Made by a program: the position numbers and the translations under genes
The notes under the pieces: model-generated
The model's input: the letters and a program-made list of their open reading frames with translations, nothing else
Told to the model about the DNA's origin: nothing
Database searches by the model: none
Shown here: in pieces, positions 1-11,588 of the stretch
How the letters are laid out: each line of letters begins with the position of its first letter
Numbering within the stretch: position 1 is the stretch's first letter
Assembly (NCBI RefSeq): GCF_016865485.1
Contig: NZ_AP024452.1
Span: 1,324,501 to 1,388,500 of the forward strand
Reading direction: 5' to 3'
From: Luteitalea sp. TBR-22
GTDB lineage: Bacteria > Acidobacteriota > Vicinamibacteria > Vicinamibacterales > Vicinamibacteraceae
DNA: 64,000 nt

Positions 1-1946
1 AGAACCAGAAGATGGCCGTCAAGCTGACGCTCGGTTTCGGCGTCAGCTTCATCCTCACGCTGGTCGTGGGCGTCATGGCGCTCCGCAGCCTGTCGACGGT
101 CAAGGATCTCAACAACGTGATGTACCAGAATCACGCGTTGGGCATCGCGCACATCAAGGAAGCCAACATCTCGGTGGTCCGCGCCTCGCGCGCCCTCCGC
201 AACGCGATCATCGACGACGCGGTCGCCGACAAGCAGAAGCGCTGGGACGACGCCAGGAAGTACCGCGTCGAGTTCGCGGCGGCGATGGAGAAGTTCGACA
301 AGACGATCGTGTCCGAGGAGGTCCGCAAGCAGAGCCGCGAGGCGCAGGAGAAGTTCAAGGAAGTGTCCGACGGCCAGGACGTCGCCTTCGAGTTGACGAT
401 TTCGGGCAAGGCCGACGAGGCCAAGGAGATGCTCAAGAGCCTGCGTGCGCAGGCCGACGAGATCGACAAGATCGTCGACACGATCGAGGCCGACAAGATG
501 AAGCGCCTCGAGGCGGCCGCCGACGAGATCGACAGCACCTACACCAGCACGCGCTCGACGCTGATCGGCATCATCGCGACGTGCATGGGCCTCACCGTCC
601 TGCTGATCTGGACGATCGCGCGCCTCATCACCAGGCCGCTCGGTGAGACGGTCAGCGTGCTGCAGCACGTCGCCAAGGCCGACTTCAGCGAGACCATCAA
701 GCTCGACACCCACGACGAGATCGGCGACCTGGCGCGCGCCACCAACGCCGCCATCACCCAGATCAAGGACGCGCTGGGCAACGTGCGGTCGGCGGCCGAG
801 GCGATGGCCAAGGGCGACTTCAGCGTCGAGGTGCGCAAGGACCTGCCCGGCGAGCTCGGCGTGATGGCCAATGCGCTGGGCACCGGCCTGACGTCGCTGC
901 GCGGCGCCGTCGCCAACGTGCGCGAGGCCTCGCAGGGCCTGGCCAACGGCGACCTGACGATCGCGGTCCGCAGCGACCTGCCGGGCGAGCTCGGCGTGAT
1001 GGCCGCGGCCCTGAACGAGGCGGTGACCAAGCTGCGCCAGGCGATGAGCGACGTGCGCGAGACCGCCAATGCGGTGGCCTCGTCGGCCGACCAGCTCGCG
1101 GCGGCCTCGCAGGAGATCTCGAGCGGCGCGCAGGAGCAGGCCAGCAGCCTCGAGGAGACGGCAGCCAGCCTCGAGGAGATGACGGCGACGATCAAGCAGA
1201 ATGCCGACAACGCACAGCAGGCCAGCCAGCTGGCCGGCGGGGCGCGCAGCACGGCCGAGGACGGCGGCCAGGTGGTGAGCGAGGCGGTGCAGGCGATGAG
1301 CGCCATCAACGACTCGTCCAAGAAGATCGCCGACATCATCACGACGATCGACGAGATCGCCTTCCAGACCAACCTCCTCGCCCTGAACGCGGCAGTGGAA
1401 GCGGCGCGGGCCGGCGAGCAGGGCCGCGGCTTCGCGGTGGTCGCGGCCGAAGTCCGCAACCTGGCGCAGCGCAGCGCGACGGCCGCCAAGGAGATCAAGG
1501 ACCTGATCTCCGACTCGACGCGCAAGGTCGAGGCCGGATCGGCGCTGGTCAACGCCTCGGGCAAGACGCTCAACGAGATCGTCGCCGCCGTCAAGCGCGT
1601 CACCGACATCGTCGCCGAGATCGCCGCGGCGAGCCGCGAGCAGTCCTCGGGCATCGAGCAGGTCAACAAGGCCGTCACGCAGATGGATCAGGTGACGCAG
1701 GCCAACGCCTCGCAGACCGAGGAGATGTCGGGCACGTCCGAGTCGCTCTCGGGCGAGGCCGGCAAGCTGCAGGGGCTGGTGCGCCGCTTCAAGCTCGGCG
1801 AGGAGGCGATGGCCGAACAGCAGCGCCCCGCGGCGCGCAAGCCCGTGGCGATGATGAGCCGCAAGCCAGCCGCCGGCCGCCGTCCGCAGGCGCCGACCTC
1901 CGGCACGGCCGCGCTCGCGCTCGACAACGAGTTCCAGGAGTTTTGA
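1..1946 (+). CDS. Methyl-accepting chemotaxis protein with tandem HAMP domains, 5' end outside window
   Basis: Transmembrane chemoreceptor that signals to CheA/CheW. The first visible ATG is at 12, but the frame is open to the window edge and reads NQK before it, as in receptors whose start lies about ten residues further upstream, so I treat the 5' end as cut. Counting from ATG 12, there is a membrane segment at about 5-24, a helical periplasmic four-helix-bundle sensor at about 30-175, and a second membrane segment at about 180-203. A HAMP domain follows, then two further HAMP-like repeats, each carrying the motif [10 protein letters not shown]. The cytoplasmic signalling hairpin has the conserved core [19 protein letters not shown]. 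The C-terminus ends NEFQEF rather than with an NWETF tether, so adaptation enzymes probably dock elsewhere. CheW follows after 29 bases with a GGAGGG site, suggesting co-transcription. Ligand unknown. Confidence 0.93.
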
Positions 1947-1975: not shown

Positions 1976-2470
1976 ATGACGACACAGCAGGCAGTGGACC
2001 AGGCCCGCACGGACGGCGGGCAGTTCCTGACCTTCCGATTGGGCAACGAGCAGTTCGGGCTCGAGATCCTCAGGGTCCAGGAGATCAAGGGGTACTCGGC
2101 GATCACGCCGATCCCCAATGCCCCCTCGCACGTGAAGGGCGTGATGAACCTGCGGGGCGCGGTGGTCCCGGTGGTGGATCTCCGCCTCAAGTTCGGGATG
2201 CCGGAAGTGGAGTACACCAAGTTCACGGTCATCATCCTGGTGACGGTGAACGGCAAGGTGGTCGGCCTGGTGGTCGACGCGGTGTCCGACGTGCTGACGC
2301 TCGGCGCCACCGACGTCGCCGCACCGCCCATCTTCGACGCGTCGGTGGACACGTCGTTCATGACCGGGCTGGCCAAGGCCGGCGACGGCCTCATCAGCCT
2401 GCTCGACATCGATCGCGTCGTCGGCATGGTCGACGAGGTCGCACCACCGCCGCAGGAGGTGGCCGCCTAG
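1976..2470 (+). CDS. cheW: Chemotaxis adaptor protein CheW
   Basis: A 164-residue coupling protein that links the CheA kinase to chemoreceptors in the polar array. It shows the CheW pattern: FLTFRLGNEQFGLEILRVQEI at the start (first beta barrel), a central NLRGAVVPVVDLRLKFGMP, and a C-terminal GLVVDAVSDVL stretch. The start ATG is preceded by GGAGGG seven bases upstream. It lies directly behind a receptor gene and is followed by a strong intrinsic terminator at 2514-2556, so receptor and cheW probably form the end of one transcription unit. CheA and CheY are not in the window and would be expected upstream or elsewhere. Confidence 0.95.
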   Translation: MTTQQAVDQARTDGGQFLTFRLGNEQFGLEILRVQEIKGYSAITPIPNAPSHVKGVMNLRGAVVPVVDLRLKFGMPEVEYTKFTVIILVTVNGKVVGLVVDAVSDVLTLGATDVAAPPIFDASVDTSFMTGLAKAGDGLISLLDIDRVVGMVDEVAPPPQEVAA

Positions 2471-2513
2471 GCGGCCGACGGGGCGCCAGGCGCGCCCCAC
2501 GGTGATCCCGACT

Positions 2514-2556
2514 AGGCGCGCGTGCACGTGGCCTCGCCACGTGCCGCGCGCCTTTT
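2514..2556 (+). terminator. Strong intrinsic terminator after cheW
   Basis: Arms AGGCGCGCG (2514-2522) and CGCGCGCCT (2545-2553) pair perfectly. Inside them CACGTGGC (2525-2532) pairs with GCCACGTG (2536-2543) around a 3-nt loop, and the stem runs into TTTT at 2553-2556. The only irregularity is a small internal loop at 523-524 opposite 544 (offset 2000). A smaller GC hairpin (2480-2498) precedes it. It sits between cheW and the cheR-cheD gene and separates two transcription units. Confidence 0.85.
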
Positions 2557-2592
2557 CGTGTGCCGGGGCAGGCCATCCTCCGGGGCGAGCCA

Positions 2593-2631
2593 TCGGGAAA
2601 TTCCCGAGGCGATGCGAAGGAATTCTCCTTC
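2593..2631. promoter_or_regulatory. Two palindromes upstream of cheR-cheD, candidate operator region
   Basis: TCGGGAA and TTCCCGA form a 15-bp near-continuous palindrome around one base (2593-2607), and GAAGGA / TCCTTC form a second inverted repeat around ATTC (2616-2631). They lie just after the cheW terminator and 100 bases before the likely cheR start, where the promoter of the second chemotaxis unit must be. No clear -35/-10 pair was recognised. Function as operators is inference. Confidence 0.35.
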
Positions 2632-2731
2632 AAGGGGCCTTCCGCCGATGCCGATGACACGAGCAGCGTCGGGGCCGCCCGGACAACCGGATGGGCCGGC
2701 GTCGGGCGGATCGGTCCGCGAGAACAACTCC

Positions 2732-4396
2732 ATGTCCCTGCTGGGTTCCGTGCCGGGAACCGTCGAACTCACCACCCGCGAGTTCGACAGCCTCCGGACC
2801 CTCATCCACGAGATTGCCGGCATCGCCCTCGCGCCCGCCAAGCGGACGCTGCTGGAGTCGCGCCTGCAGCGCCGGCTGCGCGCCCTGAACCTCCGCACGT
2901 TCAGCGACTACATCGACTGCCTCGCCCAGCCCGGCACGCCGGAGCTGGTCGAGATGATCAACTGCGTCACGACCAACAAGACGGACTTCTACCGCGAGCC
3001 GCACCACTTCCGGTTCCTGCAGCAGCAGGTCATCCCGGCGGTGCAGTCGCGCACGGTGGGCGGGCGCCGCCTCCGCATCTGGAGCGCCGGCTGTTCCACC
3101 GGCGAGGAGCCGTACACCATCGCGCTCGCCATCGCCGATGCGCTCGGGCCGCGCCTGAACTCGTGGGACGTGAAGATCCTGGCCTCCGACATCGACACCA
3201 GGGTGCTGGAGACCGCCGCGGCCGGCACCTACCCGGCCGATCGTGTCGACGTCGTGCCCGACCACCTGCGCGAGCGGTACTTCACCCGCTCCCGGACGCC
3301 TGGCGCCTACGACATCGACGACGCGATCCGCCGGATGATCACCTTCCGCCGGATCAACTTCGCCGACCCGCGCTGGCCGATCAACACGCAGTTCGACGTC
3401 ATCTTCTGCCGCAACGTCATCATCTACTTCGACCGCGACACGCAGGCCGTGCTCTTCGATCGGTTCGCGCAGCTGCTGAAGAAGGACGGGCACCTGATCA
3501 TCGGCCACTCCGAGACCCTCAGCTGGCTCACCGGGACGTTCGCGCAGGTGCGCGGCGTGCCCACCGTGTACCGCCTGGCCACGGCCGCCGACGGCGACCT
3601 GCGGCCGCCCTCGGTGGTGGCCGCACAGGCCGCCGCCGCTGCGCCAGCGTCGCGGCCGGACGCCGTCGAGCCGGCGCCGCGGCCCCTCGCGGTCGGGTCG
3701 GCTCGCCCCGCCCTCCGAGCGGGCGGGCGGCTCGCCTCGCGCCTGGAGTCGCGCCTCGGGCCGCGCCCCGCCACGGCTTCGAAGGTCGGGGCCGATCGGC
3801 GCCTGCATCACGGCGCGATCGAGTCGGCGGCGCACATGCCGCACACCCACATCATCCACGTCGGCGGCGTGTTCGCGTCGGCCGAGGCGGCGGTGGTGCG
3901 CACCATCCTGGGCTCCTGCGTGGCCGCGTGCCTCTACGACCCCGAGACCCGCATCGGCGGCATGAACCACTTCCTGCTGCCCGAAGGCCACGACAAGCAG
4001 CAGGACGCGCGGGCGAGCACGCGCTACGGCGTGCACGCGATGGAAGTGCTGATCAACGAGATGATGCACCGCGGCGCCGACCGTCGCCGCCTGCGCGCCA
4101 AGGCCTTCGGCGCCAGCGAGGCCATCAAGCACGTCGTGCTGAGCCGCGAGGTGCAGGAGCGCAACGCACAGTTCATCACGCGGTTCCTCGAGGTGGAGGG
4201 CATCCCCCTCGATCGGAGCCTGCTCGGCGGGCCTCGCCCCCTCGAGGTGCTGTTTGCCACCGACACGGGCAAGGCGTTCGTGCGCGAGTTGGCGCTGCCC
4301 TCGGTGGAACGCCTGGCACACGAGGAGGACCGCTACAGCCAGACCCTCATCCATCCGGCGCAGCCGGCAGAGGACGACGACATCACGCTGTTCTGA
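2732..4396 (+). CDS. Fused chemotaxis methyltransferase CheR and deamidase CheD
   Basis: A single 554-residue frame joins two receptor-modifying enzymes. Residues about 10-285 are CheR, which methylates receptor glutamates with S-adenosylmethionine: an N-terminal helical domain with RLQRRLRALN, the SAM-binding SAGCSTGEEPYT at 118-129, and FCRNVIIYF at 225-233. Residues about 286-368 are an Ala/Pro/Arg-rich linker. Residues about 370-540 are CheD, which deamidates receptor glutamines, with the catalytic set T391, C396 (TILGSC) and H413 (GGMNHF). I chose ATG 2732 because it lies just before the CheR core. Earlier in-frame starts exist at 2648 (AAGGGG ten bases before) and 2612, while GTG 2522 lies inside a terminator hairpin. 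CheB follows 18 bases later. An internal ATG at 3836 could in principle yield free CheD, but no ribosome site precedes it. Confidence 0.9.
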   Translation: MSLLGSVPGTVELTTREFDSLRTLIHEIAGIALAPAKRTLLESRLQRRLRALNLRTFSDYIDCLAQPGTPELVEMINCVTTNKTDFYREPHHFRFLQQQVIPAVQSRTVGGRRLRIWSAGCSTGEEPYTIALAIADALGPRLNSWDVKILASDIDTRVLETAAAGTYPADRVDVVPDHLRERYFTRSRTPGAYDIDDAIRRMITFRRINFADPRWPINTQFDVIFCRNVIIYFDRDTQAVLFDRFAQLLKKDGHLIIGHSETLSWLTGTFAQVRGVPTVYRLATAADGDLRPPSVVAAQAAAAAPASRPDAVEPAPRPLAVGSARPALRAGGRLASRLESRLGPRPATASKVGADRRLHHGAIESAAHMPHTHIIHVGGVFASAEAAVVRTILGSCVAACLYDPETRIGGMNHFLLPEGHDKQQDARASTRYGVHAMEVLINEMMHRGADRRRLRAKAFGASEAIKHVVLSREVQERNAQFITRFLEVEGIPLDRSLLGGPRPLEVLFATDTGKAFVRELALPSVERLAHEEDRYSQTLIHPAQPAEDDDITLF

Positions 4397-4414
4397 TGCC
4401 GTGGAGACGCCCCC

Positions 4415-5458
4415 ATGACTCGCGTGCTCATCGTCGACGACTCGGCGCTCATCCGCCAGTTGCTGACCCAGATCCTCCAGAGCGACCCCGACATCGAGGT
4501 GGTGGCCGCGGTGCCCGACCCGGTGGCCGCCGTCGAGCGCCTCAAGCACGAGCGGGTCGACGTGATCACGCTCGACGTCGAGATGCCGCGCATGGACGGC
4601 CTGACGTTCCTCGAGAAGCTGATGCGGGCGTGGCCGATTCCGGTCCTCATGGTGTCGTCGCTGACCGAGCGCGGCTGCGCCACCACCCTGCGCGCGCTGG
4701 AGCTCGGGGCGGTCGACTTCGTGACCAAGCCGAAGATCGACGTGCGGGCCGGCATCGAGGAACTCGGCCAGCAGATCCTCGCGAAGGTGCACGACGCCGC
4801 CCGCGCGAAGGTGCGTCGCCGCGAGAGCGGCGCCGCGGCGCCGGTCAAGGTGCTGCCCAACACGCAGGCCCTGATCAACAGCACCCACAAGGTGATCGCG
4901 ATCGGCGCGTCGACGGGCGGCACCGAGGCGCTGCGCGAGGTGCTGCAGGTGCTGCCGGCCGACAGCCCCGGCATCGTCGTGGTGCAGCACATGCCGGAGA
5001 CGTTCACGCGGTCGTTCGCCGAGCGCCTCGACACGTTGTGCCAGATCAAGGTGAAGGAGGCGGCCGACGGCGACCGCATCCTGCCGGGCCATGCGCTCAT
5101 CGCCCGCGGCAACATCCACATGGAAGTCCGCCGGAGCGGCGCGATCTACTCGGTGCGGCTGGTCGACAGCCCGCCCGTCAACCGGCATCGCCCGTCGGTG
5201 GACGTGCTGTTCGACAGTTGCGCGCGGTACCTCGGCGCCAACGCGGTGGGCGTGATTCTCACCGGCATGGGCAACGACGGCGCGCGCGGCATGCGCGCCA
5301 TGCACGACGCCGGCGCGTTCACCATCGCGCAGGACGAGGCGTCCTGCGTCGTGTTCGGCATGCCCAAGGAGGCCATCGCGGCCGGTGGGGTAGACGAGAT
5401 CCTGCCTCTCTCTCGCGTCGCCCCGGGCATGCTGCGGGCCGTCGCCGAGGCGGCCTGA
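4415..5458 (+). CDS. cheB: Chemotaxis response regulator protein-glutamate methylesterase CheB
   Basis: A 347-residue methylesterase that removes methyl groups added by CheR and so resets receptors. The N-terminal receiver domain carries D8, D9 and the phosphoacceptor D54 ([11 protein letters not shown]) and ends with the KPK switch lysine. The C-terminal catalytic domain has S166 (GASTGG), H192 (QHMPETFT) and D288 (GMGNDGARG), each two positions after the E. coli S164, H190 and D286. A GGAG site lies eight bases before ATG. It follows cheR-cheD by 18 bases, so methylation, deamidation and demethylation enzymes are probably co-expressed under CheA control. Confidence 0.96.
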
Positions 5459-5475
5459 GGAGCGGGGAGGATGCC

Positions 5476-6231
5476 ATGTTCCGCCAGGCACGTTCGCTGC
5501 TGCTGTGTACGGCCACGCTGCTGGTCGCCGTTCCCGCGATGGCGCAGATGACGCCGGGCGCCGAACCCGGAGACGTCCTGAGCCTCGGCCAGGTGATGGT
5601 CGAGGCCGGTGCGGGGATGACCTTCGACGCCGAGGACGGCACGTCCGGCGCCGGTGCGCAGCCGCTGATCCGGTTCGGCATCGCGCCGGGCATCGAGCTG
5701 CTCGGGGGATCGGGCGGGTGGACCTCGGCATGCTTCGGCCGCTGCGCCTGGTCGCCGACGACGGCGTTCGCCGGCTGGCGTGCGCTGATCCCCGGGCAGA
5801 TGGCGGGCTTCAACACGGCGGTGTCGGGCCTGTTCTACTACCCGACGCGCACCGACCATGCCCAGCCGCGGGTCATCGAGAGCAGCTTCATGCTGCACGT
5901 CGATCGCGCGATCGGCGAGGCGCTGCTCCTGACGTTCAACGCCGAGATCGCCCGGCTGCACGACGCGGAGACCGCGGTCCTGCGCCATGGGGAAGGCTTC
6001 GGCCTGGTGTGGGATCGCGGCGGGCGCTGGTTGCCGCTGGTGCGGTTCGGGCACCGGGCCGCGGCGGTCGAGGGGCCGGAGCCGTGGTACCTCGAGATGG
6101 GCACCGGCCTGCGCATGGGCGGGGCGTTCGAGTACGAGTTCGCGGTGACACGCGGCCTCAACGCGGCCGAGCCTGGCTGGGGCGTGGCGGCCGCGGTGGC
6201 CATCAGCCACGACTTCCGGCCACTCTACTGA
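5476..6231 (+). CDS. Secreted outer-membrane beta-barrel-like protein, first of a paralogous pair
   Basis: A 251-residue protein with a clear Sec signal peptide (MFRQARSLLLCTATLLVAVPAMAQ). The mature part alternates short amphipathic strands and turns rich in Gly, Tyr and Trp, ends with FRPLY, and has an aromatic C-terminus as in outer-membrane barrels. It resembles the Phenol_MetA_deg / putative transporter group that NCBI calls transporter. GGGGAGG lies five bases before ATG. It shares the C-terminal TRGLNAAE motif with the next gene, so the two are likely an old tandem duplication. It sits 17 bases after cheB, but a role in chemotaxis is not shown by the sequence. Confidence 0.8.
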   Translation: MFRQARSLLLCTATLLVAVPAMAQMTPGAEPGDVLSLGQVMVEAGAGMTFDAEDGTSGAGAQPLIRFGIAPGIELLGGSGGWTSACFGRCAWSPTTAFAGWRALIPGQMAGFNTAVSGLFYYPTRTDHAQPRVIESSFMLHVDRAIGEALLLTFNAEIARLHDAETAVLRHGEGFGLVWDRGGRWLPLVRFGHRAAAVEGPEPWYLEMGTGLRMGGAFEYEFAVTRGLNAAEPGWGVAAAVAISHDFRPLY

Positions 6232-6239
6232 GGCGTTCC

Positions 6240-7043
6240 ATGCAAGCGATGTTTCGTTGCTTCGTGCCGGCCATGCTGCTCGTTGCGGCGCTGGGGAGTG
6301 GCGCGCAAGCGCAGCCGGCCGCGCCTGCCCCGGAGGCGCCGGAACCCGGCGCCGAGTTGCCCACCGATCGCCCCGGCTTCAACGCGCCCGCCACCGTCGT
6401 CGGCCGCGGCGTGGTGCAGATCGAGATGGGGTGGTCCACGGTGCACGGCCGCGACGGCCTGAACGGCAGTGTGGGCCCGCAGCCGTTGCTGCGCATCGGC
6501 GCCACCGACCACCTGGAGTTCGAGTTCACGAGCGCCGGACTCGCCGCCGCCTGCGTCATCAAGTGCGACTGGCACGGCACCGACATCGCGGCCGGCGCGC
6601 GCTACGTGTTGCCGGTGACCCCGCTCGGGATCTCGCTGGCGATGACCGGGCTGCTCTCGGTGCCGACCGGGTCGCAGGCGTTCACGTCGGAGCACCTCGA
6701 TCCCCTGGGCATCGTCCACGTGGACCGGGCCTTCGGGCCGATCGGCGTGTCGTACAACTACATCGCCACGCGCATCCACGACGAGGACGGCGAGGTGGCC
6801 GCCACGCGGAGCGGGCACGGGCTGAACGTCGGGACGTCGATTGGCCGGTGGGCGCCGTTCGTGAACTTCGGCTGGCGGCCGGTCCACGTCGATGGGCGTG
6901 CGCCGGTGCTGGCCGAGGCGGGCCTGGCCTACCGGCTCGCCCGCGACGTGCAACTGGACGTGTCAGCGACGCGCGGACTCAATGCCGCCGAGGCGATGTG
7001 GTCGCTGTCGGCGGGCATCGTGCTGCGGCACCGTCCCCGTTGA
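6240..7043 (+). CDS. Secreted outer-membrane transporter-like protein, second paralogue
   Basis: A 267-residue protein with a signal peptide ending GSGAQAQ and a proline-rich linker before ELPTDRPGFNAPATVVGRG. That opening is typical of the Phenol_MetA_deg/transporter-like outer-membrane family. The rest is predicted beta barrel, with SATRGLNAAE near the end matching the previous gene. The ATG lies eight bases after the previous stop, and a second in-frame ATG at 6249 could also serve. The pair is probably translated from one message. Substrate unknown; the family name reflects similarity only. Confidence 0.8.
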   Translation: MQAMFRCFVPAMLLVAALGSGAQAQPAAPAPEAPEPGAELPTDRPGFNAPATVVGRGVVQIEMGWSTVHGRDGLNGSVGPQPLLRIGATDHLEFEFTSAGLAAACVIKCDWHGTDIAAGARYVLPVTPLGISLAMTGLLSVPTGSQAFTSEHLDPLGIVHVDRAFGPIGVSYNYIATRIHDEDGEVAATRSGHGLNVGTSIGRWAPFVNFGWRPVHVDGRAPVLAEAGLAYRLARDVQLDVSATRGLNAAEAMWSLSAGIVLRHRPR

Positions 7044-7054
7044 CCCGCAGCCCG

Positions 7055-7084
7055 TTGACCTGCGAGGACGGGCCGCAGTACACT
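7055..7084 (+). promoter_or_regulatory. Sigma-70-type promoter for tRNA-Asn
   Basis: TTGACC (7055-7060) and TACACT (7079-7084) are separated by 18 bases, giving a start near 7091 and a leader of about 65 bases before the tRNA. No other gene starts here on this strand. Confidence 0.6.
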
Positions 7085-7155
7085 GTCGCTTCGTCGCGAC
7101 CGGTTCCGGCCGCGGCAGGCAGCACCCTCGCCACCGTGCGAGGTCCCACCCGAGT

Positions 7156-7230
7156 TCCTCAGTAGCTCAATGGCAGAGCATCCGGCTGTTAACCGGAGGG
7201 TTGTAGGTTCGAATCCTACCTGAGGAGCCA
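7156..7230 (+). tRNA. tRNA-Asn (anticodon GTT)
   Basis: Cloverleaf read by eye. Acceptor TCCTCAG (7156-7162) pairs with CTGAGGA (7220-7226). The D arm is GCTC...GAGC (7165-7179). The anticodon stem TCCGG/CCGGA encloses CTGTTAA, giving anticodon GTT. The T arm GTAGG/CCTAC encloses TTCGAAT. The discriminator is G and CCA is encoded (7228-7230). Immediately downstream an imperfect inverted copy of the tRNA 3' end folds back on it. Confidence 0.97.
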
Positions 7231-7273
7231 TTTCTGGCCTGCGGCCAGAATGGCTCCCGCAGGTAGGCTTCAG
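7224..7273. repeat. Inverted copy of the tRNA-Asn 3' end
   Basis: The bases GGAGCCATT...CTGGCC (7224-7239, covering the tRNA 3' terminus) are complementary to GGCCAGAATGGCTCC (7243-7257) with one bulged T. Complementarity continues more weakly: AGGTAGG and TTC at about 7260-7270 match the reverse of the T-arm side. It may act as a terminator or 3'-processing hairpin, or be a relic of rearrangement or integration at the tRNA end. Confidence 0.6.
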
Positions 7274-7660
7274 GCTCGCGTCTGCTCGCCTTCGGCTCGC
7301 ACCCGCGAGCTCGAATCCGCTCTCTCCGTGGCGGGACGCTTGCGCCTCGGCGTGCGGCCGTCGCTTACCCTGAGCGCAGTCGAAGGGGCGTCGCCTCGGC
7401 CGGATCCTCCCGCGCATCGCCACACACGTCGGCTCACCGCCGCCGACTCGGGTCCACTCTCTGCGCTACGAGGAGCGTGCGCCTCGGTGTCTGCCATCGC
7501 TTGCCCTGAGCGTAGTCGACCCGACCGGCTCGAACATCCGGGTTCACGGTGTAGCCGTCGCCCTTGGGCGACGGTCGATCGACGGGCATCCGTGTCTCTC
7601 TCGTTGCTCGCCCCGGCCCGACGTTGGGCCGGACGAATGGCGCGGCGAGGACACCGCGCC
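7231..7660. other. Gene-free stretch with dispersed repeats
   Basis: No credible gene is seen between the tRNA and the converging minus-strand gene. The stretch holds two copies of a dispersed motif, GCTTaCCCTGAGCGcAGTCGA near 7369 and GCTTgCCCTGAGCGtAGTCGA near 7500, and an inverted pair of GTAG hairpins described separately. Confidence 0.6.
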
Positions 7661-7664
7661 CTAC
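7551..7664. repeat. GTAG-REP inverted pair
   Basis: Left unit: GTAG (7551-7554) followed by CCGTCGCCC / GGGCGACGG around TT (7555-7574). Right unit, in the opposite orientation: GGCGCGG / CCGCGCC (7639-7645, 7654-7660) followed by CTAC (7661-7664). A further hairpin, CCGGCCC / GGGCCGG, lies between them at 7613-7632. The CTA of the right unit is the TAG stop codon of the minus-strand gene that ends here. Confidence 0.8.
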
Positions 7665-8671
7665 CGCTGTGGGGGCGTACCGGACGGCGCGAACGTCTCG
7701 ACGATTCGCTGCGCCAGCGCGCGTGTGTTGGCGTGCGCGATGTTGGACGTGACCGCGACGACCACGCCGCCGTCCCCACTCGAGGCCAGCGACATCACCG
7801 TGCCGCCCGCGAGCTGCCCATCGACCCTGCCCGGGTGAGCCGACAGCCCGACGCGCACCAGATCGGTCGGCGTCGACGAGAACGCCTGCCCGTTGGCGGC
7901 GCAGCACGCCAGGTCGCGCATCGCCATCAGGCGACGACCGGTCCGCGGATTGCTGCCCGATTGCGGCACGTAGAACGTCGCCCGGTCGCCGGCGATCGGG
8001 TACTCCGGGCGCATGAGACCGAGCGGCTGCCAGACCACGTGGCGCAGCAACGCCAGCGGCGGGAAGTCCTCTTCCTCCTCGCCGACGTGCTCGGGGCTCC
8101 AGTCGGCTGCCGTATCGACGCCGGTGTGCGGCAAGGCCAGTGTCGACGCGGCTGGCGCGAGCACCGATGCCGCCGTGCCGACGTGGAAGCGCGTGGCTGG
8201 CGTCACGGCCGCCTCGGTCGAAACGTCGCGCCACCCGAACCCCTCGGCCCACAGGAGGGCGCCGCCGGCGCCGACCGCCACGGACACGCCCGGCAGGTTC
8301 TGCTCCAGCATGGCCGTGCGCACCAGGGCGCGGGCGCGCTCGACAGCCGCGGCGTGCTGGGCCGCCGGTGCGGCGGTTGCGGCCGACGGGATGTCCCGGG
8401 CCTGGGGGAACAGGGCCGCCGAGACGGAGACGGCGTGCGTGAGGACGGCGGCGAAGCCCGCGACGCCGACACCGACGAGGAGCGCGGTTCGGAAGCCCCA
8501 TCGCGGCAGGCGTTGGCGGGCCGCCTTCAGGCCGAGCACGAGGCCCGCGATCATGAGCACCAGGCCCATGGCCGCGGCACCGGGCGCGTCGTCGGCTTGC
8601 GCGACGTAGAAGCCCATGGCCCCGATGGCGAGGCCGAGGGTGACGAGGGTGAAGGCCTTGATCATGTGCAT
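7661..8671 (-). CDS. Membrane-anchored serine-hydrolase-like protein without recognisable SxxK motif
   Basis: A 336-residue protein with three predicted membrane helices in the first 85 residues, then an extracytoplasmic domain. The part reading EQNLPGVSVAVGAGGALLWAEGFGW and TPATRFHVGTA resembles the opening of class C beta-lactamase-like serine hydrolases. In that family the next motif is SxxK, but here the position reads GTAASVLAPAA with no lysine. The domain is also much shorter than usual, and the Tyr-x-Asn motif is not evident. It is therefore either a catalytically dead relative or one shortened by internal deletion. GAGG lies five bases before ATG 8671. The TAG stop is supplied by a GTAG repeat hairpin. 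Real function unknown. Confidence 0.65.
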   Translation of the reverse strand: MHMIKAFTLVTLGLAIGAMGFYVAQADDAPGAAAMGLVLMIAGLVLGLKAARQRLPRWGFRTALLVGVGVAGFAAVLTHAVSVSAALFPQARDIPSAATAAPAAQHAAAVERARALVRTAMLEQNLPGVSVAVGAGGALLWAEGFGWRDVSTEAAVTPATRFHVGTAASVLAPAASTLALPHTGVDTAADWSPEHVGEEEEDFPPLALLRHVVWQPLGLMRPEYPIAGDRATFYVPQSGSNPRTGRRLMAMRDLACCAANGQAFSSTPTDLVRVGLSAHPGRVDGQLAGGTVMSLASSGDGGVVVAVTSNIAHANTRALAQRIVETFAPSGTPPQR

Positions 8672-8754
8672 CACGGCCTCATCGTCGCTGACGATCGTGG
8701 CTGGACGATGGCACCTCGCAGGCACGTGACGGCGAGGTGCCCCTCGTCCCTTGC

Positions 8755-9789
8755 CTAGCTGCCCATCCCGTCCTCGAACGAGCCCTGCGCGGCCGGCCAC
8801 GTGAGGTGATCGCGCACGTAGGCAATGCCGTTGGCGCTGGTCCAGTCGAGGTCCTTGTGGGCGCTCTCGGCTTCGACGACGAGCGGCGCCGACGCGCGAC
8901 CCATCACCTGCTTGTAGCGGGCCGGGTAGCCGATGTGGTTCAGGAGCTCGGCGTAGCGCTGCATGTTGATGTCGCCCGAGGGCAGGTCCACGAACTGCAT
9001 CGCGCGCTTCTGCCAGTCGCCGTCCATCATGCGCAGCGGCAGGCCCGGCCGGATGACGAAGTTCTTGATGTGGGCGGCGTACACGCGCTTGCCGACCTTC
9101 AGGAAGCGCGACTCCCAGCTCTCGCCCTCCCAGCAGTGCGACGGATCGGCGTTGACGCCGAGGCACGCGTCGCCGTCGCAGATGTCGACCAGCATGTTGA
9201 AGTCGTCGGCGCACATCGCCGCCGTGCCCGGGTGGATCTCGTGGCACAGGATGATGCCGCGCTCGTTGGCGGCCTTCCGCAGGGAGGCCGTCTTGCTGAC
9301 GAAGCGCTCCTGGCCTTCCTTGATCAGGTCGTAGTCGCCGCCCTGCCAGAAGCCCCAGGGATAGCCCGTGGCCGCTTCCCAGCCGAACGCGACACCCCAG
9401 AACATCGGGAGCACCCGGATCTTCAACTCCGCGGCGAGATCGAACAGCTGCAGCAGGTACGTCTCGGCCCAGGCTTCGATCTCGGCCGGCGACTTCCTGG
9501 CCACGTCCGCGGGCACGAAGGGGCGCACCGTGGGGCTGCCGGTCCACGCCGTCGTGTGCACCCACACGGGGCAGTGTGTCGAGATGCCGTCGAGCGACAG
9601 GCTGCGCGACGCGAATGCGTCGAGGATCTCGCTGGCCTTCCGGAAGCTGCCGTCGGCAGCCTGCAGCATGTAGTTCGAGGGTTGGGCCCCGGCTGCGCCC
9701 GACGCCTTGGCGTAGTCGAGGAACTGCTCGAGGGACTTGGCGCCGTGCTGCGCGCCTTCGATGCTGGCGTGATAGAGGCTCTGTGCCAT
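8755..9789 (-). CDS. Sugar phosphate isomerase/epimerase family TIM-barrel protein
   Basis: A 344-residue protein of the xylose-isomerase-like TIM-barrel superfamily (AP endonuclease 2 fold), whose members isomerise or epimerise sugars using a divalent metal. Candidate metal ligands sit at strand ends: CHEIHP, NADPSHCW and, near the C-terminus, VVEAESAHKD. No signal peptide is seen, so it is likely cytoplasmic. ATG 9789 is preceded by GGAG seven bases upstream, which favours it over longer in-frame starts. It is 83 bases upstream of the serine-hydrolase-like gene on the same strand. Substrate cannot be assigned. Confidence 0.85.
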   Translation of the reverse strand: MAQSLYHASIEGAQHGAKSLEQFLDYAKASGAAGAQPSNYMLQAADGSFRKASEILDAFASRSLSLDGISTHCPVWVHTTAWTGSPTVRPFVPADVARKSPAEIEAWAETYLLQLFDLAAELKIRVLPMFWGVAFGWEAATGYPWGFWQGGDYDLIKEGQERFVSKTASLRKAANERGIILCHEIHPGTAAMCADDFNMLVDICDGDACLGVNADPSHCWEGESWESRFLKVGKRVYAAHIKNFVIRPGLPLRMMDGDWQKRAMQFVDLPSGDINMQRYAELLNHIGYPARYKQVMGRASAPLVVEAESAHKDLDWTSANGIAYVRDHLTWPAAQGSFEDGMGS

Positions 9790-9918
9790 GGGTCTGCTCC
9801 GGCCGCGGGTGCGAAAGGGATGTCGGCGCCAGGCCCCGGGTACCGGCATGCATGACGTCGGGCGGGGCGGCGCACCGCCGAGGATACCGGCGGGCCGTGC
9901 CGCGCGCCAACCCCGGTG

Positions 9919-10521
9919 CTACAGGAGGCCGCGCGCCACCAGCGCCGCCCGAACCGCCGCAGGGCCGTCGACCACCTCGGCCTGCAGTCCGAGCGACCGT
10001 GCCACCGCCACGTTGCCGGGGGCATCGTCGAAGAACAGCACCCGCTCGGCAGGCTGACCGAGCCGCGCCAGCGCGAGGCGGAAGATCTCCGGGTCGGGCT
10101 TGCGAACACCGAGTTCGTGCGACGCCCAGGCATGGTCGAACGCGTCGAGGAGGCCGAGCTCGCGGGTCAGCCGATCCCAGTGCAGGGGATTGTTGTTGCT
10201 GAGGGCGGCCAGCACGAACCGTCCGCGCAGGTCACCGAGCAGGTCGAGGGCGCCCGGCAGCCAGCCGCGCGCCCACGATCGGTATGCGGCGACGAAGTCC
10301 TCCGGCGGGAGCGAGATGCCCCAGTCCTCACGGAAGCGGGCCACGAAGGTGTCGGTGTCGAGGCGTCCGCCGCCGAACGCCAGCGACGGCGCGCAGGCGT
10401 TCCAGCGCGCCTCGACCTCGGCTTCCGACAGCTCGGTGGGCAGCAGGCGCCGCAGCTCCGCGACGCCCGCGAAGTCCACGAGCACGCCACCCAGGTCGAA
10501 GAGCAGGACGGACGGGGTCAC
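9919..10521 (-). CDS. HAD-superfamily (subfamily IA) phosphatase-like hydrolase
   Basis: A 200-residue haloacid-dehalogenase-type hydrolase. Motif I is FDLGGVLVD with nucleophile D9; the usual second Asp two residues later is Gly, as in YihX-like members. Motif II is the SNNNP segment, motif III the lysine in GVRKPDPEIF, and motif IV FFDDAPGN. The cap is the helical insert after motif I. Such enzymes dephosphorylate small metabolites such as sugar phosphates. The start is GTG 10521 with no clear ribosome site; the ATG at 10529 is out of frame. A heptamer repeat array lies just upstream of it. Confidence 0.85.
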   Translation of the reverse strand: MTPSVLLFDLGGVLVDFAGVAELRRLLPTELSEAEVEARWNACAPSLAFGGGRLDTDTFVARFREDWGISLPPEDFVAAYRSWARGWLPGALDLLGDLRGRFVLAALSNNNPLHWDRLTRELGLLDAFDHAWASHELGVRKPDPEIFRLALARLGQPAERVLFFDDAPGNVAVARSLGLQAEVVDGPAAVRAALVARGLL

Positions 10522-10538
10522 GGGGGCATGATACGCGT

Positions 10539-10612
10539 GGCTTACGGCTCAGGGCTCAGGGCTCACGCAGAAGGACAAAGGACAAAGGGCAAACGGCAAA
10601 GGGCGAACGACG
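10539..10612. repeat. 7-bp-period array: GGCTCAG type followed by AAGGACA type
   Basis: GGCTTAC, GGCTCAG, GGCTCAG and GGCTCAC run back to back (10539-10566). After a 4-base GCAG break come AAGGACA, AAGGACA, AAGGGCA, AACGGCA, AAGGGCG and AACGACG (10571-10612). Two different heptamers share one array. It fills the gap between two minus-strand genes. Confidence 0.85.
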
Positions 10613-10616
10613 TCTG

Positions 10617-11588
10617 TCAGCGCGGGAAGAGATCCGGGTTGTTCGTGAACAGGCCGTCCACCTTCAGTTCCTGCACGTACCGCCGCATCTTCGTCGTCAG
10701 CGCCTCCGGCGTGGCAAGGTCGGGCGGGCGCAGCGCGAACGTCCACGGCACGACCGTCAGGCCAGCGGCGTGAGCCTGCGCGACGAGCTCGGGCGTGCGA
10801 TCGACGATGGGGATGGCCGGCGCGACGCCGGTGGCGAACGTGCGCATCTCGGCGAGTCCGGCCGGCGTGAGCCAGCGCGCGACCCCTTCCGGCGTCCCGA
10901 TCAGGAAACTGCGCGGCACTTCCGGGAGCAGCCTGGCCAGTCGGCGGACACTGTCCTCCTCGAAGACCTGCAGGTGCACGGCAGGGCGCCCCTTGAACGT
11001 GGCGCCGACCAGGCCGTTCTTGCGGAGCGCGTCGGCCACCAGCTGCTCCGGGTCGAAGCCCTTCGACCGGAACCGCGCGGGGAACTTCAGCTCGGGGAAC
11101 AGCCCGGCCTTGCCCTTCACCAGGTCGATGGCCTCCTGGAAGGTCAGCATGCGCTCGCCCTTGAACCGCGGGCCGAACCACGACCCGGCATCGAGCGACT
11201 TGATCTCGGCCAGCGTGAAGTCCTCGACGAGCCAGTGTCGCTCCTCACCCTTCGGCGTCTTCACCACGGTGAATCGATCCGGATACCGGTCGCGCACGTC
11301 GGTCGTGCGCTCGAGGGCGCCGTCGTGCGTGCAGACGAGCACGCCGTCCTTCGTGATGCCGAGGTCCGGCTCGACGTAATCGGCGCCCTGCGCGATGGCG
11401 AGTTCGTAAGCCGCGGCCGTGTGCTCGGGGGCGTACGCCGACGCCCCACGGTGCGCGATCACGAATGCACCAGGCGACGATGCGGGCTGCACTGCCGAGG
11501 TGGTGGCCGACATGGCGTGGATGAGCTGCGCGCCGACCAGGGCGAGGCACGCGACGGTTCGCCGTACTGATGAGGATCGACAGGGCAT
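10617..11588 (-). CDS. Secreted glycerophosphodiester phosphodiesterase
   Basis: A 323-residue enzyme that hydrolyses glycerophosphodiesters to glycerol 3-phosphate and an alcohol. A short hydrophobic segment (about 11-30, TVACLALVGAQLIHA) looks like a signal peptide. The GDPD signature follows: H46-R47 in IAHRGASAYAPEHT, the metal ligands E73 and D75 in VEPDLGITKDG, and H88 in VCTHDG. The C-terminal half keeps the TIM-barrel pattern (PELKFP, VDGLFTNNPDLF). ATG 11588 was chosen because it opens directly onto the signal peptide. The gene is divergent from the large receptor gene, with 160 bases between the starts. Likely role: recovery of phosphate and glycerol from lipids or teichoic-type polymers. 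Confidence 0.9.
   Translation of the reverse strand: MPCRSSSVRRTVACLALVGAQLIHAMSATTSAVQPASSPGAFVIAHRGASAYAPEHTAAAYELAIAQGADYVEPDLGITKDGVLVCTHDGALERTTDVRDRYPDRFTVVKTPKGEERHWLVEDFTLAEIKSLDAGSWFGPRFKGERMLTFQEAIDLVKGKAGLFPELKFPARFRSKGFDPEQLVADALRKNGLVGATFKGRPAVHLQVFEEDSVRRLARLLPEVPRSFLIGTPEGVARWLTPAGLAEMRTFATGVAPAIPIVDRTPELVAQAHAAGLTVVPWTFALRPPDLATPEALTTKMRRYVQELKVDGLFTNNPDLFPR

Follow-up and report, generated by a model that had tools for sequence, protein, structure and literature searches.

A merged cheR-cheD gene in Luteitalea sp. TBR-22 probably encodes a tethered receptor-modifying enzyme

Background

CheR methylates glutamates of chemotaxis receptors, and CheD converts receptor glutamines to glutamates. 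Both belong to the core chemotaxis proteins, of which fused pairs are known, such as CheB-CheR. CheA-CheY fusions likewise join two such proteins (excerpts of PMC2577667). A CheR-type domain is joined to a core chemotaxis domain by a 28-residue linker in the CheW-CheRlike proteins of Spirochaetia F2 systems (excerpts of PMC7666581), and CheR is joined to a domain of another kind in the CheR-TPR fusions, FrzF among them (excerpts of PMC3447774).

The arrangement closest to the locus described here is that of the cheR-cheD-cheB clusters of Pseudomonadota (such as loci L007 and L096), which have the same gene order and families and similar partners. The taxonomic order to which L007 belongs also supplies the nearest rows in our trees. 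Here we describe a gene in a window of 64,000 nucleotides from Luteitalea sp. TBR-22 (genome G000) in which cheR and cheD form one reading frame. Features and positions are collected in Table 1.

Table 1. Features of the cheR-cheD region, with positions as counted in the window
Feature	Position	Strand	Remarks
Methyl-accepting chemotaxis protein (MCP)	12..1946	+	tail EFQEF; candidate methylation/deamidation site of 10 residues
cheW	1976..2470	+	
cheR-cheD fusion gene	2732..4396	+	554 aa, 61.3 kDa, ATG at 2732
CheR_N all-alpha domain (residues 17-65)	2780..2926	+	Pfam PF03705, E 1.2e-15
CheR SAM-dependent methyltransferase domain (residues 82-274)	2975..3553	+	Pfam, E 6e-63; R88, D153, Y232 kept
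CheR beta-loop (residues 187-194)	3290..3313	+	shorter by 2 residues than the loop of most relatives; Asp in place of Salmonella R197
Ala/Arg/Pro-rich linker (residues 286-368)	3587..3835	+	predicted disordered, pLDDT <50 at 294-367
CheD domain from Met369	3836..4351	+	Pfam stretch 3974-4285; T391, C396, H413 kept
C-terminal tail D-I-T-L-F	4379..4393	+	pentapeptide-like motif, common to unfused CheDs
cheB (receiver + methylesterase)	4415..5458	+	

Results

Domains and key residues

Frame 0 of the window runs uninterrupted from 2516 to the stop codon at 4394-4396. The matches to CheR_N, CheR and CheD each exceed the curated Pfam cut-off, the CheD match covering residues 415-518 (E 3.3e-20, 72.7 bits against a cut-off of 25). 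This confirms the original prediction that CheR and CheD domains are encoded in one uninterrupted frame. The Thr/Cys/His site of Thermotoga maritima CheD (2f9z_C), which we take to be the catalytic triad, aligns with T391, C396 and H413. For the other half, R98, D154 and Y235 of Salmonella CheR align with R88, D153 and Y232, and these residues are given as marks of an active CheR in excerpts of PMC5907407. Each domain keeps its key residues, in line with the original prediction, and the linker is as rich in Ala, Pro and Arg as described, with 22 Ala, 11 Arg and 10 Pro among 83 residues.

The stricter NCBIfam equivalog models were not reached. For CheR, PRK10611 gave 222.8 bits against a cut-off of 435, a threshold that we presume was chosen for proteins closely related to the enterobacterial one, and the CheD half fell under all nine of the CheD equivalog cut-offs that it matched. 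In the AlphaFold model 316 of the 554 residues have a pLDDT of at least 90, forming two confident domains with a disordered linker at residues 294-367 between them. A Foldseek search with this model returned Salmonella CheR (1af7, 2.1e-28) and T. maritima CheD (2f9z_C, 2.5e-13). At residues 459-462 (window 4106-4117) the CheD half reads FGA where the other 13 of the 14 aligned CheDs have GG; judged by this substitution, its activity might be altered.

Regulation of CheD by CheC was a premise of the original prediction which probably does not apply here. The Met-Phe pair that contacts CheC (M101 and F102 in Bacillus subtilis, numbering transferred by inspection via the T. maritima alignment) is Ala464-Ile465 in the CheR-CheD protein, and this contact is described as conserved where CheC is present (excerpts of PMC3513319). 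The sole PF04509 match in the genome is CheX-like, scoring 64.7 bits with CheX and 27.9 with CheC, which passes the CheC cut-off of 22. The CheD half would thus probably lie outside CheC control. The CheX gene stands in a row with a CheY-like and an HDOD-like frame at L094:831-2594, where the names CheY and HDOD were given by looking at the sequence.

Integrity of the junction

A frameshift in the linker, the case named against the original prediction, is made unlikely by the neighbouring frames. Frame +1 lacks a stop between 3495 and 3963, the latter inside CheD, and frame +2 lacks one from 2503 to 6231. A one-base indel in the linker would therefore put the end of CheR 127 bases beyond the start of CheD, or much farther. 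Since the short overlap usual in many relatives is recreated by neither frame, an artefact from one indel is unlikely. GC content at the three codon positions of the linker is 0.88, 0.70 and 0.90 (GC3 0.90). By codon usage frame 0 tops the three forward frames in every scoring window of the linker, with scores below zero there, and in the scoring window at 3692 one reverse frame marginally outscores it. Two long open frames cross the che genes off-frame, 2560-6231 on the plus strand (1223 codons) and 2630-5731 on the minus strand (1033 codons); these are probably by-products of a GC-rich sequence.

Gene neighbourhood and chemotaxis set of the genome

Reading the window together with its upstream flank (locus L059) gives a row of genes on one strand: a short MCP-like protein ending in GDVELF, STAS, CheY, CheA, MCP, CheW, CheR-CheD and CheB. 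The gap between cheW and cheR-cheD is 261 bases, and a promoter and terminator scan of 2400-5600, this gap included, found none. We infer that the two genes are cotranscribed, which is not certain given the length of the gap. The neighbouring MCP carries glutamine-bearing sites that match the methylation consensus.

The genome consists of a single 6.47-Mb contig, and the fusion is the only CheD match in it. Other profile matches comprise five CheR, one of them partial, and eight MCP-signal. At a distance of about 3.86 Mb there is a paralogous set of MCP-like, STAS, CheY, CheA, MCP and CheW genes (positions 4991-11513 of locus L143, G000:C1:5178000-5196000). Its CheA and MCP are 75% and 81% identical to those of the window, and its MCP has the same tail, DNEFQEF. 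Within the 18 kb examined around this cluster no CheR, CheD or CheB was found. One CheR-CheD and one CheB may serve both clusters, in a genome that has other CheRs as well.

Search for further fusions

Fusions were called from stop-to-stop frame scans. CheD was found in 19 of 162 genomes of the order, at 21 places, all of which were inspected, and it is fused to CheR only in TBR-22 and in genome G026 (contig C54), from another family. The original prediction had proposed a search of relatives for the same domain pair in one protein, and G026 answers it with one example. This second fusion is divergent, with about 45% identity in each domain, and groups with that of TBR-22 in the concatenated trees, so that the fusion is not an artefact of one genome. 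It is rare, occurring in two of the 19 CheD-bearing genomes of the order.

Additionally, CheD was found in 26 of 193 genomes of the class and in 89 of 396 of the phylum. In the class of genome G516, which we take to be Gammaproteobacteria in the phylum Pseudomonadota, it was found in 92 of 274, and in that phylum in at least 156 of 398. The sets of 396, 274 and 398 genomes are samples; those of the order (162) and class (193) are not flagged as such. No third fusion was seen among the CheD places inspected, which came from the listed matches in roughly 1,200 distinct genomes of overlapping samples. Outside the order, inspection covered the listed frames of at least 400 amino acids plus a few shorter ones, where both domains need about 420. 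For Pseudomonadota the check likewise holds among the matches listed, at the weak end of which a CheD like that of TBR-22 would fall and could be missed.

No CheD match was obtained from four genus-mates and two further members of the family; at E 0.001, all of these but one genus-mate also lacked a match to the CheR-CheD protein. Viral contigs contained no relative of the protein. Among plasmids, 716 records had a match, and in three of them a single place accounted for 80% or more of the query; cheR and cheD were separate in all six plasmid loci that were opened.

In nearly all relatives inspected, cheR and cheD are separate genes, neighbouring or overlapping. Four apparent fusions of 491-498 amino acids in the order of G516 (two in G1229, one each in G1228 and G1227) were rejected, being tandem genes with an in-frame stop between them (TGA in three, TAA in one). 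At these loci (L130, L131, L132 and L133), cheR and cheD share a frame in which just a stop codon and a few further bases part them. Such an arrangement suggests that the loss of one stop codon could create a fusion of this kind.

Phylogeny

All trees were unrooted. Two were built from concatenated CheR and CheD, the first with 42 of 43 pairs (the fragment L050 was dropped) and the second with 42 of 43 chosen loci (one without either domain was dropped). In both, the fusions of TBR-22 and G026 form one side of a branch, with support of 98/92 and 99/97, respectively. From the order of G516, 17 unfused pairs were included; 15 of them adjoin the fused pair (97/87), and two are placed elsewhere. 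The closest unfused relatives are cheR and cheD genes that stand side by side in Pseudomonadota. A tree of CheD only also groups both fused proteins (100/96). In the tree of CheR only they are not grouped (two changes; 16% of bootstrap trees unite them in one group).

The two fused proteins are 45.8% identical in CheR and 44.6% in CheD. The unfused pair L007 is nearer to the TBR-22 protein than the second fusion is, with 48.9% and 46.7%. The linkers differ in length, 83 residues in TBR-22 against about 17 in G026. The simplest account is that the genes fused once and that the copies then diverged for long while their frame stayed open; two fusion events, or a transfer between families, are possible alternatives.

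A pentapeptide-like tail in CheD

Most unfused CheDs of the clade end, about 25 residues past the domain, in [DEG]-[VI]-[ET]-L-F. Within a clade of 36 rows the strict motif was found in 27 and a looser one in 33, as against none of six outgroup rows. The strict pattern occurs in 36 of 88 distinct CheDs (including L007, L008, L063-L066, L089, L104 and L133), and 12 of these 36 carry one residue past the Phe. Over all loci, 3,307 stop-to-stop frames reach 100 amino acids or more, and 61 of them end in the looser motif, a count that includes these CheDs and repeated loci. Short MCP-like proteins with the same tail lie in the same clusters as CheDs (L059:8736-9521, L143:4991-5926, L008:8582-9784 and L098:5516-6715).

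The CheD tail resembles the receptor pentapeptide that docks CheR. In Vibrio cholerae System III, whose gene cluster includes cheD, a receptor tail E-W/V-E-x-F is given as a possible CheR3 site (excerpts of PMC11940527). No stated function of the CheD tail was found in the literature searched. A speculative idea, which we consider unlikely, is that unfused CheD docks on CheR (or CheB) by this receptor-mimicking tail, and that fusion made the complex covalent, after which each fusion lost one side of the docking. The second fusion has lost the tail, and the TBR-22 protein keeps it (DITLF) with an altered CheR loop, as would be expected if a covalent link had replaced docking. When the unfused pair L133 was folded as one chain, the tail was disordered (residues 480-490, pLDDT 34 in the last block) and lent docking no support; in the TBR-22 model, residues 551-553 form a short strand with a pLDDT of about 51. 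Three further points count against docking. Position 2 of the CheD tail is Val or Ile, where aromatics at pentapeptide positions 2 and 5 are stressed as central (excerpts of PMC7390727); 12 of the 36 tails run one residue past the Phe; and tail-less CheDs mostly have full-length CheR loops beside them too. If this idea is correct, many Pseudomonadota would have a general CheR-CheD complex that has gone unrecognised, and the fusion would be a sign of it.

Discussion

We consider it likely that the merged gene encodes a tethered, bifunctional receptor-modifying enzyme, with both activities predicted from domain content and conserved residues. The CheR half would use SAM to methylate glutamates in the methylation helices of the receptors. 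The CheD half would convert glutamine to glutamate on the same helices, and perhaps act by receptor binding too. As the product of CheD is the substrate of CheR, the fusion would link two reactions that follow each other on the same substrate. The linker, flexible and about 75-83 residues long, would bring sites on adjacent receptors of an array within range of both halves, and CheB from the next gene, with its own receiver, would provide demethylation and CheA-controlled feedback. The gene would have arisen when adjacent cheR and cheD of a Pseudomonadota-type che cluster merged into one frame; a single event in an ancestor shared by the TBR-22 and G026 copies is the simplest case. We infer that one product is translated, that it acts on the MCP encoded nearby and on the paralogue of that MCP, and that tethering is of benefit; that the fusion sets the ratio of CheR to CheD and their place at the receptor array is a reasonable supposition.

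One alternative concerns the number of products. The internal start proposed at 3836 does exist as an in-frame ATG, exactly at the beginning of the CheD fold, and a free CheD of 20.7 kDa made from it alongside the full-length protein would leave the stoichiometry unfixed. By a simple count of Shine-Dalgarno matches this ATG does at least as well as the start at 2732 (4 of 6 against 3 of 6), but neither has a clear site, unlike CheW and CheB with GGAGGG and GGAG upstream. On sequence alone translation could begin at either ATG, and we are unsure of the exact start of the gene itself, for which a codon-usage gene finder picks the GTG at residue 7 and not the ATG at 2732. In the second fusion the corresponding stretch (about residues 318-382) lacks an in-frame ATG and offers just three GTGs, located at the CheD fold or within it. 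Altogether we regard two products as rather unlikely. That there is no fusion at all, cheR and cheD being truly separate genes joined by an assembly or sequencing error, would agree with their separate, adjacent or overlapping state in almost all relatives inspected. Such an error is highly improbable in a single-contig genome in which no single linker indel yields a normal junction, and with a second fusion in another family.

A different role for CheD, mainly as a receptor-binding tether for a CheR that has lost pentapeptide docking, with deamidation secondary, seems unlikely to us. By the criteria in excerpts of PMC5907407 the CheR half looks pentapeptide-independent, its beta-loop being two residues short with Asp194 at the R197 position. 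Among 42 CheR rows only the TBR-22 protein has Asp there, and a loop gap occurs in three including it. In B. subtilis, moreover, CheD binding outweighs deamidation (excerpts of PMC3513319). However, Arg at the R197 position is absent from 25 of the 42 rows (24 of 41 without TBR-22), many of them unfused nearest relatives and two with Glu, so that this mark, present in just 17 of 42, is not special to the fusion. The beta-loop of the second fusion is of full length, the neighbouring MCP still has a pentapeptide-like end (EFQEF), and the key residues of the CheD half are conserved.

If the merged gene does encode a tethered enzyme with both activities, glutamate-making and glutamate-methylating enzymes would be coupled in a genome with one CheD and no clear CheC. 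Fusions hint at proteins that act together, and a physical link between CheR and CheD becomes testable, alongside the tail conserved in unfused CheDs.

Comparison with known systems

No report of a CheR-CheD fusion was found in the literature searched, which covered few subscription journals. What the locus adds is a rearrangement of known parts, real but modest. The CheA-CheY and CheB-CheR proteins join other pairs. In the CheR-TPR fusions the partner is not a receptor-modifying enzyme, and their genes lie mostly in clusters of alternative function (excerpts of PMC3447774). The CheR-like half of CheW-CheRlike is thought inactive by its authors (excerpts of PMC7666581), whereas the key residues of CheR are intact in TBR-22. 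CheD also forms part of a multidomain protein in three genomes of the same phylum (L061:5047-7932, L068:2548-3903 and L069:2677-4131), but there its partner is HDOD and CheD is N-terminal. The cheR-cheD-cheB clusters of Pseudomonadota remain the nearest counterpart, with two separate proteins where TBR-22 has one.
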